In this document: positions 24,388-37,871 of the stretch, in pieces
Numbering within the stretch: position 1 is the stretch's first letter
Layout: the number at the start of each line of letters is the position of its first letter
Virus record (IMG/VR): IMGVR_UViG_3300048930_000335
Span: 1-44,342 of that record
DNA: 44,342 nucleotides
Source: a virus
Strand: one strand, 5' to 3'
The notes under the pieces: generated by a model
Told to the model about the DNA's origin: nothing
The model's database searches: none
The model's input: the letters and a program-made list of their open reading frames with translations, nothing else
Translations under genes and position numbers: made by a program

Positions 24388-24918
24388 TTAGGCCCAATTC
24401 TCGCCGCGCCGTATCCTGTGGATCGTGTTCGGGTGTACGCCGAACCGTTGCGCAAGCCGCTGCGCGTACTTGGGGCCCGGCTCCGCCGCTCGTATCGCGT
24501 CCACGTCAGCGGCCGCTAGCTTGGCGCGCCCGTGTCGCTCGCCTCGCGGCATGAGTCCGTCCCGCTGCGCGTCCCGGATGTTGTCCGCTCTCGTGGCCAG
24601 GTACAGGTGCGCCGGGTTACAGCACAGCGTGACGTTGCAACGGTGGCAGACGCAGGCGCCATCCGGGATGGGTCCGTGTTCGAGCTCGTACGCGAGCCGG
24701 TGAGCGTTCACGGTCTTGGCGCCCCGCTTGATCGCGCCGTAGCCGGACCGAACGGAAGCGCCTGACCAGAGCCAGCACCCGGACTCGGTAACGTGCAGGC
24801 GGCGCCAGAATTTGGCACCCGTGTCTTTGACGTTTTGGGGCGGCCCGTCCGGTACCTCGGCGGTTTCGGCGAACGAGGCGGTCGAATTCTCGCGTGTTTT
24901 TGGGCTGTACTCGTCCAC
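24388..24918 (-). CDS. HNH endonuclease with C-terminal helix-turn-helix
   Basis: A 176-residue protein from GTG 24918, chosen because AGGAGGT lies 4 bases upstream. Residues 36-115 form the HNH domain seen in phage homing-type endonucleases: FWRRLHVTESGCWLW, NAHRLAYELEHGP, then CVCHRC, CCNPAHL and ATRADNIRDA, giving a metal site with paired Cys and the HNH His/Asn. Residues 135-175 (AAADVDAIRAAEPGPKYAQR, QRFGVHPNTIHRIRRG) form a DNA-binding HTH. It is probably a mobile, self-spreading gene. It is open without a stop to the Cys-rich segment upstream. Confidence 0.82.
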   Translation of the reverse strand: MDEYSPKTRENSTASFAETAEVPDGPPQNVKDTGAKFWRRLHVTESGCWLWSGASVRSGYGAIKRGAKTVNAHRLAYELEHGPIPDGACVCHRCNVTLCCNPAHLYLATRADNIRDAQRDGLMPRGERHGRAKLAAADVDAIRAAEPGPKYAQRLAQRFGVHPNTIHRIRRGENWA

Positions 24919-25164
24919 GTTACCTCCTGGGGCGGACTCAAAATCGCTTGGTACGCAATAGCTCTCCCGGTCGCGCGCCACGTAGCTGCAGCACGTAGCG
25001 CAGCCGACATCACAGGGCGCCTCGCAGCGCCGGTCCGTGTCGCCCCAGCGCACGCAGGCCTTGCCGTCGGGGCATTGCTCCCCGCCGTATTCGCACGGCG
25101 CCTCGACGCCAGAGCAGGCTAGCGCACGACCCGCAGCGCGCGCCGGGGCAGGTGCGGATGGCAC
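24919..25164 (-). CDS. Cysteine-rich segment in frame with the HNH gene, possible degraded lipoprotein copy
   Basis: In the same frame as the HNH gene and with no stop between, this segment reads ALACSGVEAPCEYGGEQCPD, then KACVRWGDTDRRCEAPC and cysteine pairs GCATCC. It is clearly related to the 96-residue protein at 29955-30245 (ASC..APELPCELGGNDCPD, YTDARCEAP). The only in-frame start is GTG 25164, giving a poor signal peptide. It overlaps the gene at 25010-25369 in another frame. It may be a remnant after HNH insertion or an N-terminal extension of HNH. Confidence 0.45.
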
Positions 25165-25369
25165 AGGCGAGGGCGGCCTCGGCGGAGTCAAAGGTTGGGA
25201 TCCCGAATCCGTTACCGAACCACTCGCCGTCGCGCAATTCGATGAACGGGTCTTGGCCATCGTTAGCGGGAGACCGTGCGACCCACAACGTGGAGCCATC
25301 CTCAAACACACTCGGCTCCCACGTCAGCCCGTGCGCCTCGAAGGGCTCGCCGGGGGTGGGGTCGGTCAT
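25010..25369 (-). CDS. Hypothetical protein, acidic N-terminal domain
   Basis: A 119-residue frame from ATG 25369 with GGGGGAGAT immediately upstream. Residues 1-72 look like a genuine domain (FEAHGLTWEPSVFEDGSTLW, DPFIELRDGEWFGNGFGIPT, SAEAALACAIRTCPGARCGS). Beyond residue 80 the frame is Arg-rich and overlaps the Cys-rich segment in another frame, so the native end may be earlier or joined by a frameshift. It overlaps the 27-residue upstream gene by 4 bases. Confidence 0.6.
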   Translation of the reverse strand: MTDPTPGEPFEAHGLTWEPSVFEDGSTLWVARSPANDGQDPFIELRDGEWFGNGFGIPTFDSAEAALACAIRTCPGARCGSCASLLWRRGAVRIRRGAMPRRQGLRALGRHGPALRGAL

Positions 25370-25449: not shown

Positions 25450-25910
25450 AGCAACCTCCCTGCCGCATCAAACGGCTTCCAAAGCAGTGTTTTCTTCCCG
25501 TCAGCGGACCGCGGCTTGACCGGGTGCACAACCCACCCAGCGCATTTGAAGCAGTATCCCTTATTGCGCGACTGTACTTTGCGGTCCCACACATACGTCA
25601 GCATCCCGTCGGGGCCGCACCCGCGCCCCGACTCAGCTAGCGCGCGCTCCGCCGCGAGAATCAGTTCGCTTGAACGCGTCTCTGACTCATTGCGGAATAT
25701 CGAACATGTCCAGCCGTCGAGTCCGTTCATGCTGCGAAGGCCGCTATCGGGGTGCGGTCGCCACCAGCCGAACACGACGCCGGGCGCCGCGAGAACGAGC
25801 GTTTCACCAGGCGGCATGAATTGAGGGCTACCAACCGTGCGCCGCGAATAGTGGCGGTCCGCTAGCTGCGCAGACGGCGCGTGAAACTTGGGCACGACTT
25901 CGAGCATCAC
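25446..25910 (-). CDS. GNAT-like (possibly Mom-related) phage protein
   Basis: A 154-residue protein of a type seen in many phages: an N-terminal DRHYSRRT-like segment with SPQFMPPGETLVLAAPG, then WTCSIFRNES, and a late KVQSRNKGYCFKCAGWV. The last segment resembles the C-terminal acyl-CoA-acceptor end of GNAT acetyltransferases. Mu Mom was proposed to have such a fold. Acyl transfer to DNA or another substrate is therefore a hypothesis only. GAGGAG precedes the ATG. It overlaps the coiled-coil gene by 4 bases. Confidence 0.6.
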   Translation of the reverse strand: MMLEVVPKFHAPSAQLADRHYSRRTVGSPQFMPPGETLVLAAPGVVFGWWRPHPDSGLRSMNGLDGWTCSIFRNESETRSSELILAAERALAESGRGCGPDGMLTYVWDRKVQSRNKGYCFKCAGWVVHPVKPRSADGKKTLLWKPFDAAGRLL

Positions 25911-26911
25911 TCCTCGCCTTCGGGGACTCGCGCAAGCTCCGCATCCTCAACGCCCTTCGCGTATATCCACGCCTCTGCGGGAGGCGAGTACGGAGCAACA
26001 TCGCGGAGGTCGGCTGGGTTCACCGAGTACCGCTCCGACTTCGCCCACTTGTCGAGGCGATCTTGCAGACCGAGCGCGTGCTGCGTTGTGTTGTCGAGCG
26101 CGAACTTGAGGTCGTCCCGCTCCCGCTCCGCCACTTCGATGCGGGCGCGAAGGGCGGCATCGACGTTGGCGCCTTCCGCTAGTGACGTGACCAAGCAATC
26201 CACACGCTCCCGGGCCTCTTTAAGGCTGTCTTGCGCCACTGTCAGCGTTGCGCGTTCGGCCCAGAGTGACACCAGCGCGCCGTCTCGCTCACGTCTCGAG
26301 ATTTCCAGTTCCAGCGTCGTGTCTTCTAGCGAGGCGCGCAACGCGTCCCGCTCCCGCTCCGCGCGTTCGGCGCGGACACGAAGTTCCGTGTTCTCGCCGA
26401 CGACGCTACGCAGCCTGCACGCGTCGTGCTTGGCGTCGTCGCTGACTCCGCTATCGTCGAGCCTTAATTCCCATTGGTAGGACCCAAGCTCCCGGGCGCG
26501 CGCTACCACCTTCTCGGCCATTGCGAGTTTTCGCTCAACCCGTTCGAGCTTCGCCTCCGCCGCCAACGCACTCTCTCCTAGCTCGACGGCTCGGTCGCGC
26601 TGCCGAGCCAGGCCGTCAACGCATTCCGCAAGTCGGGATAATCGCGCAGTAGACTCCTTGGGACCGACACCGAAACCGGCCGCGTTTAGCCGCTCCTCGA
26701 TTCGCACGAGGTAGCCCACAGCCTTCTCCGCGCGCTCCCGCAGCTCAGCGACGTGGGCGAGGATGGCGGCGCGGGCGGTGTCGTATCGCGGTTTGAACGC
26801 TTCGTATTTGGCATTCTCGCCAGGCCCCCACATGATAGCGCCGTCCCACGCAGCTGCTACTGCGTCGGCTGCCTTGTCGTATTCGTCCAACATCTCCTCA
26901 ATCTCACTCAT
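25907..26911 (-). CDS. Long coiled-coil protein
   Basis: A 334-residue protein from ATG 26911 (GGGG TGG in the leader). Residues 1-40 are acidic; residues about 60-290 are a near-continuous coiled coil (LRERAEKAVGYLVRIEERLN, EAKLERVERKLAMAEKVVAR, LRVRAERAERERDALRASLE, RARIEVAERERDDLKFALDN). The end (VNPADLRDVAPYSPPAEAW) is Pro-rich. It starts in an ATGA overlap with the Gly-Tyr protein stop, so the two are made together. It could be a structural organiser; no enzyme motif is visible. Confidence 0.75.
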   Translation of the reverse strand: MSEIEEMLDEYDKAADAVAAAWDGAIMWGPGENAKYEAFKPRYDTARAAILAHVAELRERAEKAVGYLVRIEERLNAAGFGVGPKESTARLSRLAECVDGLARQRDRAVELGESALAAEAKLERVERKLAMAEKVVARARELGSYQWELRLDDSGVSDDAKHDACRLRSVVGENTELRVRAERAERERDALRASLEDTTLELEISRRERDGALVSLWAERATLTVAQDSLKEARERVDCLVTSLAEGANVDAALRARIEVAERERDDLKFALDNTTQHALGLQDRLDKWAKSERYSVNPADLRDVAPYSPPAEAWIYAKGVEDAELARVPEGEE

Positions 26912-27159
26912 TTGCCACCCCTGCCATAGCCGTAGCCATAGCCGTAGCCGTCGCCGTAGCCGTAGCCATAGCCGTAGCCATAGCCGTAGCCATAGCCGTA
27001 GCCATAGCCGGAGCCGTCGCCGTAGCCGTAGCCGTAGCCGTCGCCGTAGCCGGAGCCGTAGCCGGAGCCGTAGCCGGAGCCGGAGCCGGAGCCGGAGCCG
27101 TAGCCGTAGCCGGTTCGCGGGGTGTTTCGTTTGCCAGGCTTGGTAGTCACGCGCGCCAT
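26908..27159 (-). CDS. Gly-Tyr dipeptide-repeat protein
   Basis: An 83-residue protein: a basic start (MARVTTKPGKRNTPRT), then residues 17-79 with Gly at every second position and Tyr (21), Ser (7) or Asp (3) between, then RGGK. It is fully low-complexity and cannot fold as a globular domain; sequences like this can form condensates or sticky fibres. GAGAGG precedes the ATG at 27159. The stop overlaps the coiled-coil gene start (ATGA). The DNA is a hexanucleotide microsatellite (26924-27113). No known phage protein family is recognised. Confidence 0.7.
   Translation of the reverse strand: MARVTTKPGKRNTPRTGYGYGSGSGSGSGYGSGYGSGYGDGYGYGYGDGSGYGYGYGYGYGYGYGYGYGDGYGYGYGYGRGGK
26924..27113. repeat. 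Hexanucleotide microsatellite (TAGCCR/GAGCCG/TCGCCG units)
   Basis: On the plus strand, GCC alternates with GTA, ATA, GGA or GTC through about 190 bases without interruption of the 6-base period, giving GGC-TAC/TAT/TCC/GAC codons on the minus strand. Runs such as TAGCCGTAGCCATAGCC repeat exactly, so unit gain or loss by slippage would keep the frame. Confidence 0.9.
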
Positions 27160-27473
27160 TCGGGAGCCTCTCGTAGCCACGCTGCGCCGACGGGTTGGCA
27201 ATAGATGACCTCGCACACGTCAGAGCTTCGGAGGTCGTTCCGTGTGAGCGTTGCGCCAATCTTGCAGTTACCGGCGCGCGCGGGGTTCGGCCCATAAACT
27301 GCCAATTCGCTCAGGCTCGCGGCTCCGTCCCAATACCAAATGCGTCGCGAGTCAGAGAGGGTGAGCCGACCGCCTTTTTCGCCAACGAGATAGCCGGAGT
27401 GGACGCCGGCGTCCTTGCAACGGCAGATGACGTAGGGGCGCTTGGTGGTCTTCTTGCTGGTCTTCTTGGTCAT
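27147..27473 (-). CDS. DUF6948-like phage protein
   Basis: A 108-residue protein with a basic start (MTKKTSKKTTKRPYVICRC), then AGVHSGYLVG, LSDSRRIWYWDGAASLSELA and GPNPARAGNCKIG. The RRIWYW.GA.SLSELA core is characteristic of a small conserved phage family of unknown function. Stop-start overlaps of 4 bases upstream; it overlaps the Gly-Tyr gene by 13 bases. Confidence 0.75.
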   Translation of the reverse strand: MTKKTSKKTTKRPYVICRCKDAGVHSGYLVGEKGGRLTLSDSRRIWYWDGAASLSELAVYGPNPARAGNCKIGATLTRNDLRSSDVCEVIYCQPVGAAWLREAPEWRA

Positions 27474-27691
27474 TTGCTTATCTCCTTCAATTCAGCCGCT
27501 TTGCACTCGGGGCAGCGGAGCGGAGTGCCGAACGTGTCGCCGTCTCGCTCAAGCTCACCGCCGAACGCACTGCACCAGAACCACTCCTTGCTGTTTCCGT
27601 CGTTGTCCCATGACAGGTTTTTGCATTGCTCCGCGTACCCGTCAGAGCACCGCTCCGGGTCGTCGAATATCTCGAGGGCGATGCGTCTCAT
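27470..27691 (-). CDS. Small probable zinc-binding protein
   Basis: A 73-residue acidic protein with CSAFGGELERDGD and PLRCPECKAAELK; the CPEC pair and other Cys (C15, C23) may bind a metal. The N-terminus MRRIALEIFDDPERCSDGYA is helical. It overlaps both neighbours by 4 bases. No family is recognised. Confidence 0.65.
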   Translation of the reverse strand: MRRIALEIFDDPERCSDGYAEQCKNLSWDNDGNSKEWFWCSAFGGELERDGDTFGTPLRCPECKAAELKEISK

Positions 27692-36517: not shown

Positions 36518-36954
36518 TGGTCACCGTCCTCGTAAGCCCGCACGCTGTTGCTCGGTATCAAGAGCGGGTGGACCCGAGCGCTTCAGACGCGGCAGCCGAG
36601 GCCGCACTGTTGTCAGCGTGCGCCGCTCCCGCCGTAGACTTGGAGTCTGCGGCCCGTGCCGGTTTCATTGCCAAGCGCTACGTCACGGTCGGGCAATCAG
36701 CTTTGGCGCTGGTGAGGTGGGAGCAAACGATCGCAGTGGTTGTCACCGTACTCCCAAAGCACAAGCCGAGGCGCGCTTGGAAACCAGATCGCGAGCGGGC
36801 TCTTGAGCGCGAATTGCCGAGTTTGATCGATGAGCACATGACAGTGATTCACGAAGACACGTGCGTTGAATGCCGCGCACCAATCTACGACACCGATCAG
36901 GGCATGTGCGATCGGTGTTGGCGGCTGCTCGACGAAGACCAGGGGATTATCTGA
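36517..36954 (+). CDS. Hypothetical protein with C-terminal zinc knuckle
   Basis: A 145-residue protein with GGGGAGGAG in front of ATG 36517. The N-terminus (VLVSPHAVARYQERVDPSAS) resembles small SPHA..RY.ER proteins of phages, some of which have a RelE-like or DUF4258-like fold, but catalytic residues cannot be assigned. The C-terminus CVECRAPIYDTDQGMCDRCW is a zinc ribbon. It overlaps the next gene by one base. Confidence 0.6.
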   Translation: MVTVLVSPHAVARYQERVDPSASDAAAEAALLSACAAPAVDLESAARAGFIAKRYVTVGQSALALVRWEQTIAVVVTVLPKHKPRRAWKPDRERALERELPSLIDEHMTVIHEDTCVECRAPIYDTDQGMCDRCWRLLDEDQGII

Positions 36955-37871
36955 TGTCTGAATTCATGCAGATCGATCCGCGCATCCTGGAGCACCCGAA
37001 GTTTGTGCGCGCGGTCCGTACCGGCGGCTCGGCTCCGGTGCATCTCTGGCTCGGGATCAGGTCATGGCAGGAGGCACACGACCTGGCTCCGGTGCCGCAT
37101 GACCTGATTGACGAGCCGCGCGGGCCACTCAAGCCGGAGGTGCGGGCGGAAGCACTCCGGGTACTGCTCGAGGTGGGGCTGCTGCTCGAGAGCGCGGAGG
37201 GGTACACGCTGCACGGTTTGGCCGACTGGACGGGGGACGTGAACCAGCGCCGGCTGGACCGAGCTCGAAAGCGTCGCGAGCGGGCCGAGCTGGCGACAGC
37301 TGCCCCTCGAGGAAACTTCCACGCGGAACCTGTCCGGGGTACCTCGGACAGCTCGTCACGGGTACCCGTGACACCCTGTCACGGCCAAGATAGAGATAGA
37401 GATAGAGATAGAGATGAAGATAGAGATGGTTCGGCGCCGTCACGTGACACCGTCTGTCCGCTGACACTGCACGAGACGTTTGGGGCGTACGCGCAGCTCG
37501 CCACGGCGCTCCAGGTGCCCGAGTCGGAGCTCCGCAAGGCCGCTGCCGAGTTCGTGAGCTACTGGACGATCGGCGGCGGGATGGGGCGCCGCCAGGGCAA
37601 CTGGGCGCGCAAGCTGCGCGAACATCTCCGCATCGGCGTGCGGGACGGGCGCATCACGGCACCCAAGGCCAACCCGCACGAACCGCCGCCGGTCACTCCC
37701 GAGCAGCTCCGGGCCGCACGTGACCGAGCACGGGCCGAGAATCGCGCCAGGCTTGAGGCCGCGCCCCTGGACGGGCCCGAGGTCGGGGTCGGGTCCGAAA
37801 ACGCGTCTACGGGGCAGCCAGGCGGCAGCAATGGCATTGGCGAGGCGGCGCTGCGGGAACTCGGGATATGA
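36954..37871 (+). CDS. Replication initiator-like protein
   Basis: A 305-residue protein directly before DnaB. Residues 1-105 form a winged-helix-type domain (MQIDPRILEHPKFVRAVRTG, VHLWLGIRSWQEAHDLAPVP, LKPEVRAEALRVLLEVGLLL), as in phage DnaD/DnaT- or RepO-type initiators. A disordered linker includes the DR repeat encoded at 37389-37430. Residues 165-240 have helices and WTIGGGMGRRQGNWARKLRE, like the C-terminal DnaB-contacting part. It should bind the origin and load DnaB. Confidence 0.68.
   Translation: MSEFMQIDPRILEHPKFVRAVRTGGSAPVHLWLGIRSWQEAHDLAPVPHDLIDEPRGPLKPEVRAEALRVLLEVGLLLESAEGYTLHGLADWTGDVNQRRLDRARKRRERAELATAAPRGNFHAEPVRGTSDSSSRVPVTPCHGQDRDRDRDRDEDRDGSAPSRDTVCPLTLHETFGAYAQLATALQVPESELRKAAAEFVSYWTIGGGMGRRQGNWARKLREHLRIGVRDGRITAPKANPHEPPPVTPEQLRAARDRARAENRARLEAAPLDGPEVGVGSENASTGQPGGSNGIGEAALRELGI
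37389..37430 (+). repeat. Hexanucleotide repeat encoding Asp-Arg dipeptides
   Basis: GATAGA is repeated four times, then GATGAA, GATAGA and GATGGT, giving DRDRDRDRDEDRDG in the initiator linker. AGA is otherwise rare in this GC-rich genome, so the run stands out in codon use as well. Slippage would add or remove dipeptides without a frameshift. Confidence 0.9.

Follow-up and report, generated by a model that had tools for sequence, protein, structure and literature searches.

A conserved phage gene pair: DUF6948, a predicted Sm-like protein, and a hypervariable Gly-[Tyr/Ser/Asp] repeat protein

Results and discussion

What does a phage do with a gene that is largely a hexanucleotide repeat, and with which of its neighbours would such a gene work? 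The question arises from IMG/VR record IMGVR_UViG_3300048930_000335, whose 44,342 nucleotides are called the window here. The window encodes a sheath, a head protease and a DnaB helicase, which identify a contractile-tailed phage. Its repeat gene, which we call the G-X gene, sits in a minus-strand block that also contains an exonuclease VIII gene (Table 1). An earlier note on this DNA had described a gene made of a Gly-Tyr hexanucleotide microsatellite, and it had both the coordinates and the frame right. The ORF, read from 27159 to 26908, encodes 83 amino acids with the layout MARVTTKPGKRNTPRT-(GX)n-RGGK, and residues 17-79 form an unbroken 63-residue Gly-X run in which X is Tyr, Ser or Asp. 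TRF finds a 190-bp array beneath it (period 6, 31.7 copies, 86% match). Glycine is encoded by GGC in 32 of 33 counted units and X, within the run, by TAC (15), TCC (7), TAT (6) and GAC (3); a purine-rich GAGAGG lies immediately 5' of the ATG. Apart from this run, G[YSD] runs in the window reach 5 residues at most, and the longest in 20 shuffles of the window have 4-6, so a run of 63 is far beyond chance.

Table 1. Positions of the G-X gene, its array and the surrounding genes in the window.
Feature	Coordinates	Strand	Description
HNH endonuclease gene	24388-25311	-	1.6 kb downstream of the DUF6948/G-X pair
334-aa coiled-coil gene	25907-26911	-	downstream neighbour with ATGA overlap; outside the conserved module
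G-X gene	26908-27159	-	83-aa (Gly-Tyr/Ser/Asp)n low-complexity protein; short, basic N-terminus and C-terminal RGGK; ORF analysis
Hexanucleotide array	26923-27112	-	GGC + TAC/TAT/TCC/GAC, 31.7 copies; hypervariable in relatives
DUF6948/G-X gene overlap	27147-27159	-	13 bp; modal arrangement in relatives
DUF6948 gene	27147-27473	-	108 aa; conserved partner, predicted Sm/LSm-like small beta-barrel; Pfam PF22253 (4.8e-19), AF2, Foldseek
73-aa gene	27470-27691	-	upstream edge of the two-gene cassette; meets the coiled-coil gene directly in L243

The note's author had not recognised the composition of the gene, and indeed no protein library names a G-X protein. Profile searches with the window protein gave no Pfam or PHROG match, and a DNA similarity search of phage records with the window region gave no matches. 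Its relatives gave low-complexity matches only (e.g. TrAA12) in Pfam, PHROG and NCBIfam, which we rejected as an identity, and the PDB sequences that the G-X protein matched resemble linkers or similar low-complexity segments. The window also holds a second 6-bp repeat, AGATAG (6.7 copies, 37388-37427), which encodes RDRDRDRDEDRD within a plus-strand ORF (36870-37871) directly upstream of the DnaB helicase gene.

Reading frame and composition of the arrays

The repeat is open in all three minus-strand frames (Arg-Leu, Gly-Tyr and Ala-Thr/Pro) and in two plus-strand frames (Ala-Ile/Val and Ser-Arg), so openness alone cannot pick the frame, while relatives can. Gly-Tyr is the real frame according to the relatives. 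The earlier note, which also chose it, had listed only Arg-Leu and Ser-Arg runs for the other frames. Across the relatives, 277 repeat runs lie in the frame of the chosen ORF and 6 in another, and frame-breaking changes, which had been named as evidence against the gene, do not occur as a pattern. Of the loci with out-of-frame runs, those followed up, L128, L145 and L191, each have a G-X ORF that covers the run; at L160 a long G-X run lies in an ORF, and at several loci further runs lie in extra tandem G-X ORFs.

Among 162 distinct arrays, the X residues are Ser (36.6%), Tyr (31.5%) and Asp (24.7%), together 93%, and all three are present in 151 arrays. The commonest other residue is Ala at 1.7%; N, H, F, C, A, T and P could likewise be reached by a single base change but account for at most 2% each. 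Serine is encoded by TCN in 149 arrays and by AGY (AGC) in six, including those of Neisseria gonorrhoeae prophages and of locus L010. Contigs found by DNA pattern could show TCY serine only, and the AGC arrays all come from DUF6948-selected loci. Different phages thus use one or the other of the two serine codon boxes, which means that the same residues were arrived at by separate routes and that selection acts on the protein. Third codon positions track genome GC (r = 0.68), and the order of units is near random (mean z 0.27). Taken as a comparison of sequences, these data show a repeat that is evidently selected as protein, for its composition and not its order.

A conserved pair with DUF6948

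The gene directly upstream is a clear member of DUF6948 (Pfam PF22253), a family for which Pfam states no function. We collected DUF6948-selected loci from viral contigs (71) and from bacterial and archaeal genomes (28), plus named phage and plasmid records, and counted pairing where the sequence continued for 90 nt or more beyond the gene. A G-X frame lies directly downstream of DUF6948 at 108 of 114 loci, compared with 3 of 564 control stretches of 700 nt from the same loci. By source, the counts are 70/72 for viral loci, 23/27 for genomes and 15/15 for named phage and plasmid records. The complete alignment of DUF6948 is diverse and has too few conserved stretches for a genome scan; the scan used a tighter alignment and one motif only, and the prevalence in genomes is a lower bound.

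Retrieval in the reverse direction gave the same picture. Of 120 contigs retrieved solely with a degenerate DNA pattern of the repeat, 102 have mixed G-X arrays and 80 of these carry DUF6948, without exception on the same strand and upstream; in many of the mixed arrays lacking DUF6948, the repeat lies near the edge of the locus. The exact 13-bp overlap of the window recurs in 88 of 177 cases, the G-X start lies within 30 nt of the DUF6948 stop in 164 of 177, and at L090 the two are fused in one ORF. The phages and prophages that carry the pair have hosts that include Pectobacterium, Vibrio, Neisseria, Chlorobi, Bacteroidales and Clostridia. The pair, its gene order and its overlap are thus, to judge from the loci compared, conserved among phages and prophages that differ widely.

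The earlier note overlooked this near-invariant partner and looked downstream, to the 334-residue coiled-coil protein. The ATGA overlap that it reported does exist, but the conserved overlap is the one with DUF6948. The coiled-coil protein has a single relative in the viral contigs, at L243, where the G-X gene is absent, and we rejected it as a conserved partner. L243 is the nearest relative of the window (exonuclease 91% and coiled-coil protein 78% identical), and it lacks both DUF6948 and G-X, so that the 73-aa gene adjoins the coiled-coil gene. The pair can evidently be absent as a unit, and from this joint absence we read it as a single accessory unit, with the coiled-coil gene as a bystander.

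Genes for SSB, YqaJ-type exonuclease, and ERF and RecT-like annealing proteins, assigned from their sequences, recur near the pair, and SSB, exonuclease and ssDNA-annealing genes are also annotated beside it in several records. The genomic setting of the pair is probably early. An HNH endonuclease gene follows the pair in Iodobacter phage PhiPLPE, as it does in the window. At L170 and L172 the array next to DUF6948 is a Gly-Ala rich variant, and one contig contains several related arrays. An apparent second DUF6948 gene, seen as a neighbour cluster at 15 loci, seems to be the first one again, called from an earlier start.

Predicted fold of DUF6948

The window protein scores 68.7 bits against PF22253, where the gathering cut-off is 27, and all 56 aligned members match the family. 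From the alignment of these 56 proteins, AlphaFold2 gives a model with pLDDT 93 that has five strands, a pair of helices inserted between strands 3 and 4, and a further helix at the C-terminus. In a Foldseek search against the PDB, all of the best 50 matches are Sm/LSm proteins (best E 1.2e-3; TM about 0.5 by query and at most 0.75 by target), and the viral structures matched include a phage protein annotated as Sm-like. Small beta-barrels resemble one another. Sequence matches of Sm type are weak and come from 1-2 of the 56 members (LSM14 2.6e-4, SM-ATX 0.0063, LSM 0.018), profile-profile comparison with Sm/LSm by hhalign is likewise weak (probability 17%), and a sequence search of the PDB with DUF6948 gave no match. 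We therefore call DUF6948 Sm/LSm-like by predicted fold only. PHROG 18306 gave weak, partly compositional matches to both partners, to DUF6948 at its positions 154-239 (2.7e-4) and to a G-X protein at 54-132 (1.4e-4).

Predicted disorder and fused domains

In the predicted structure of a fused protein from L008, the G-X part has pLDDT of about 30, compared with 95 for the C-terminal domain, and the G-X region is accordingly predicted to be intrinsically disordered. Tyrosine, the candidate sticker residue, occupies 31% of X positions. Many loci have a C-terminal domain fused to G-X; these domains are of at least two unrelated kinds, and L070 has a third, which contains cysteines. Domain 1 (about 150 aa, with FAHGxTL...LTGSCExGR motifs; L008:4288-5055, L033:4249-4977 and others) has a confidently predicted fold with no Pfam or PDB match; similar domains presumably end phage leucine-rich-repeat proteins. 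Domain 2 (FWRSDKxGxPxNGG...ALHATxxPxKWKGERxWIVAL) is found at L106, L125, L159, L160, L175, L186 and L187, and the members scanned have no Pfam match. From locus to locus, the net charge of DUF6948 shows no co-variation with that of G-X.

Hypervariability and tandem copies

The Pectobacterium phages Ymer, Abuela and Amona are identical over 1,770 bp upstream and 1,250 bp downstream of the G-X gene, which is 222, 222 and 204 bp long, respectively. The array units of Amona are ordered differently from those of Ymer, and the Ymer and Abuela arrays are identical. In Taid, whose DUF6948 gene is 99.7% identical, the G-X gene is 258 bp. Phages of the Ymer genus were assembled with metaSPAdes from Illumina NextSeq libraries, and the identity of the Ymer and Abuela arrays argues that the arrays are reproducible despite short-read assembly. 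Near-identical metagenomic pairs also differ, by 96 bp (L065/L066), 156 bp (L135/L176) and 120 bp (L049/L050), and two N. gonorrhoeae chromosomes with three prophage copies each have G-X genes of 288 or 294 bp. All of the length differences compared between relatives are multiples of 6, and the earlier expectation that unit number would vary six bases at a time, with the frame kept, is borne out. The PLSDB "plasmids" NZ_CP119142.1 (L229) and NZ_CP119140.1 (L235) are 2.17-Mb, chromosome-sized N. gonorrhoeae replicons with three DUF6948/G-X pairs each.

Some loci have more than one copy. L103:1693-2968 carries five G-X genes in tandem whose ends (MGLKAFLKF ... EPNLTSAGATVVEE) and spacers are identical; their arrays differ and are built of GGC-GAT, GGC-TCT and GGC-TAT only, with zero synonymous variation. 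Two G-X ORFs occur at 14 further loci. The tandem set of L103 is possibly a repertoire. Among the relatives compared, the arrays evidently turn over very fast, in 6-bp units and by processes that keep the frame. We infer that turnover is fast enough to purge neutral synonymous variants, and that the three residue types would persist through selection for the mixture.

What the pair may do

The explanation that we favour, at a probability of a little under 40%, is a two-gene module that splits an Sm-like core from a low-complexity partner. The two proteins would act together, as suggested by their overlapping genes and the one natural fusion, and would do so early in infection, beside the ssDNA-annealing, SSB and exonuclease genes. 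DUF6948 would be the folded core, possibly binding RNA or ssDNA, and the disordered G-X chain would be its multivalent partner, in which Tyr stickers and Gly/Ser/Asp spacers drive local assembly. Such a system would be the split counterpart of LSm proteins with low-complexity tails. If the chain needs composition and rough length only, then slippage and unit recombination could scramble the array freely. Condensate formation by the G-X protein, one of the earlier suggestions, is possible. The description of G-X as a mere tail may not hold generally, given the folded C-terminal domains on many G-X proteins, and the array-only differences among the tandem paralogues of L103 hint that diversity itself may matter.

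That hint leads to the main rival of the split module, which we consider possible but doubtful, namely that diversity is the function. The G-X gene would be a contingency locus in an accessory anti-host or anti-defence cassette, where fast reshuffling yields a set of Tyr/Ser/Asp/Gly surfaces, akin in composition to antibody CDR-H3 loops, that bind or decoy changing targets in the host or escape sensing by it. The arrays of Ymer and Amona differ while none of about 3,000 flanking bases do, which is what such a locus would show, as are the tandem genes of L103 and the loci with two G-X ORFs, and the presence or absence of the cassette between the window and L243 suits an accessory role. A compositional parallel exists in the bovine ultralong CDR-H3, a hypervariable binding loop with Gly-Tyr repeats (PMC7366855); this belongs to a vertebrate antibody, and the analogy is one of composition only. 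However, neutral turnover under a composition constraint would also give near-random order and constant composition, and neither a host target match nor a dedicated diversifying enzyme was identified. PADLOC profiles matched neither DUF6948, the window G-X protein nor three fused G-X proteins. A broader and rather speculative reading combines these elements: a widespread system of an Sm-like protein and a separately encoded hypervariable Gly-[Tyr/Ser/Asp] chain, with tandem repertoires in some phages, would supply rapidly changing low-complexity sets that meet or evade changing hosts.

The fused domains, at least one of them predicted to be well folded, raise the possibility that G-X is an accessory scaffold or adaptor for C-terminal domains, with the stand-alone forms stripped down. 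We think this unlikely, as such domains are lacking in the window and in most relatives, and the constant partner is DUF6948. A virion surface or adhesive fibre, as in the earlier suggestion of a sticky fibre, would fit the silk-like composition and the tail fibre gene that adjoins the pair on the opposite strand in Pectobacterium phages, but the families that recur nearby belong to recombination and replication and the window copy shares its block with exonuclease VIII, so the early recombination setting makes this role quite improbable. Least credible is that the array is a microsatellite evolving neutrally, that it acts as untranslated DNA or RNA, or that it arose as an assembly artefact. 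Its DNA is a simple repeat, and most of the metagenome contigs were probably assembled from short reads, as the Ymer-genus phages were. However, the same amino acids are encoded through different codons and GC contents, the frame is kept, Ymer and Abuela gave the same 222-bp array, and prophage copies in complete N. gonorrhoeae chromosomes differ in frame by 6 bp; we consider it very unlikely that the array arose neutrally or as an artefact.

Comparison with known systems

The pair is apparently a widespread and undescribed phage system. The G-X partner of DUF6948, the overlap and the Sm-like fold are undescribed in the protein libraries and open-access literature that we searched, and that literature, which leaves closed-access papers outside our scope, holds no paper on DUF6948, G-X phage proteins or the repeat motifs. 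Similarity searches mask low-complexity sequence, which may explain why the pair went unnoticed. Its biochemistry may prove to be of a known type. An uncharacterised domain is now tied to a near-constant low-complexity partner across phages and prophages of very different hosts. The arrays are a natural replicated experiment in the evolution of a disordered protein with composition fixed and order free, and the isolated near-identical phages that differ at the G-X locus offer a genetic handle.

Low-complexity tails are found on Sm/LSm proteins such as LSm4, Scd6/LSM14, Ataxin-2 and SmD1/D3, and Hfq has a disordered C-terminus. The phage pair likewise has a predicted Sm-like fold and a Gly-rich disordered chain, but its tail is a separate overlapping gene with strict alternation of Gly with Tyr, Ser or Asp. 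Prion-like domains of the FUS type are disordered and rich in Tyr, Gly and Ser, with Tyr stickers and Gly/Ser spacers. G-X has the same candidate stickers and spacers and predicted disorder; in contrast, it has a strict dipeptide periodicity, Asp in place of Gln and a phage origin. Diversity-generating retroelements and phase-variable phage loci diversify proteins rapidly and locally, as happens at G-X. We did not see the scattered, adenine-specific substitutions of the retroelement type, and the units are almost solely TAY, TCY and GAY and change as wholes. Unlike those systems, G-X changes whole 6-bp units and their order, at the repeat and in frame.
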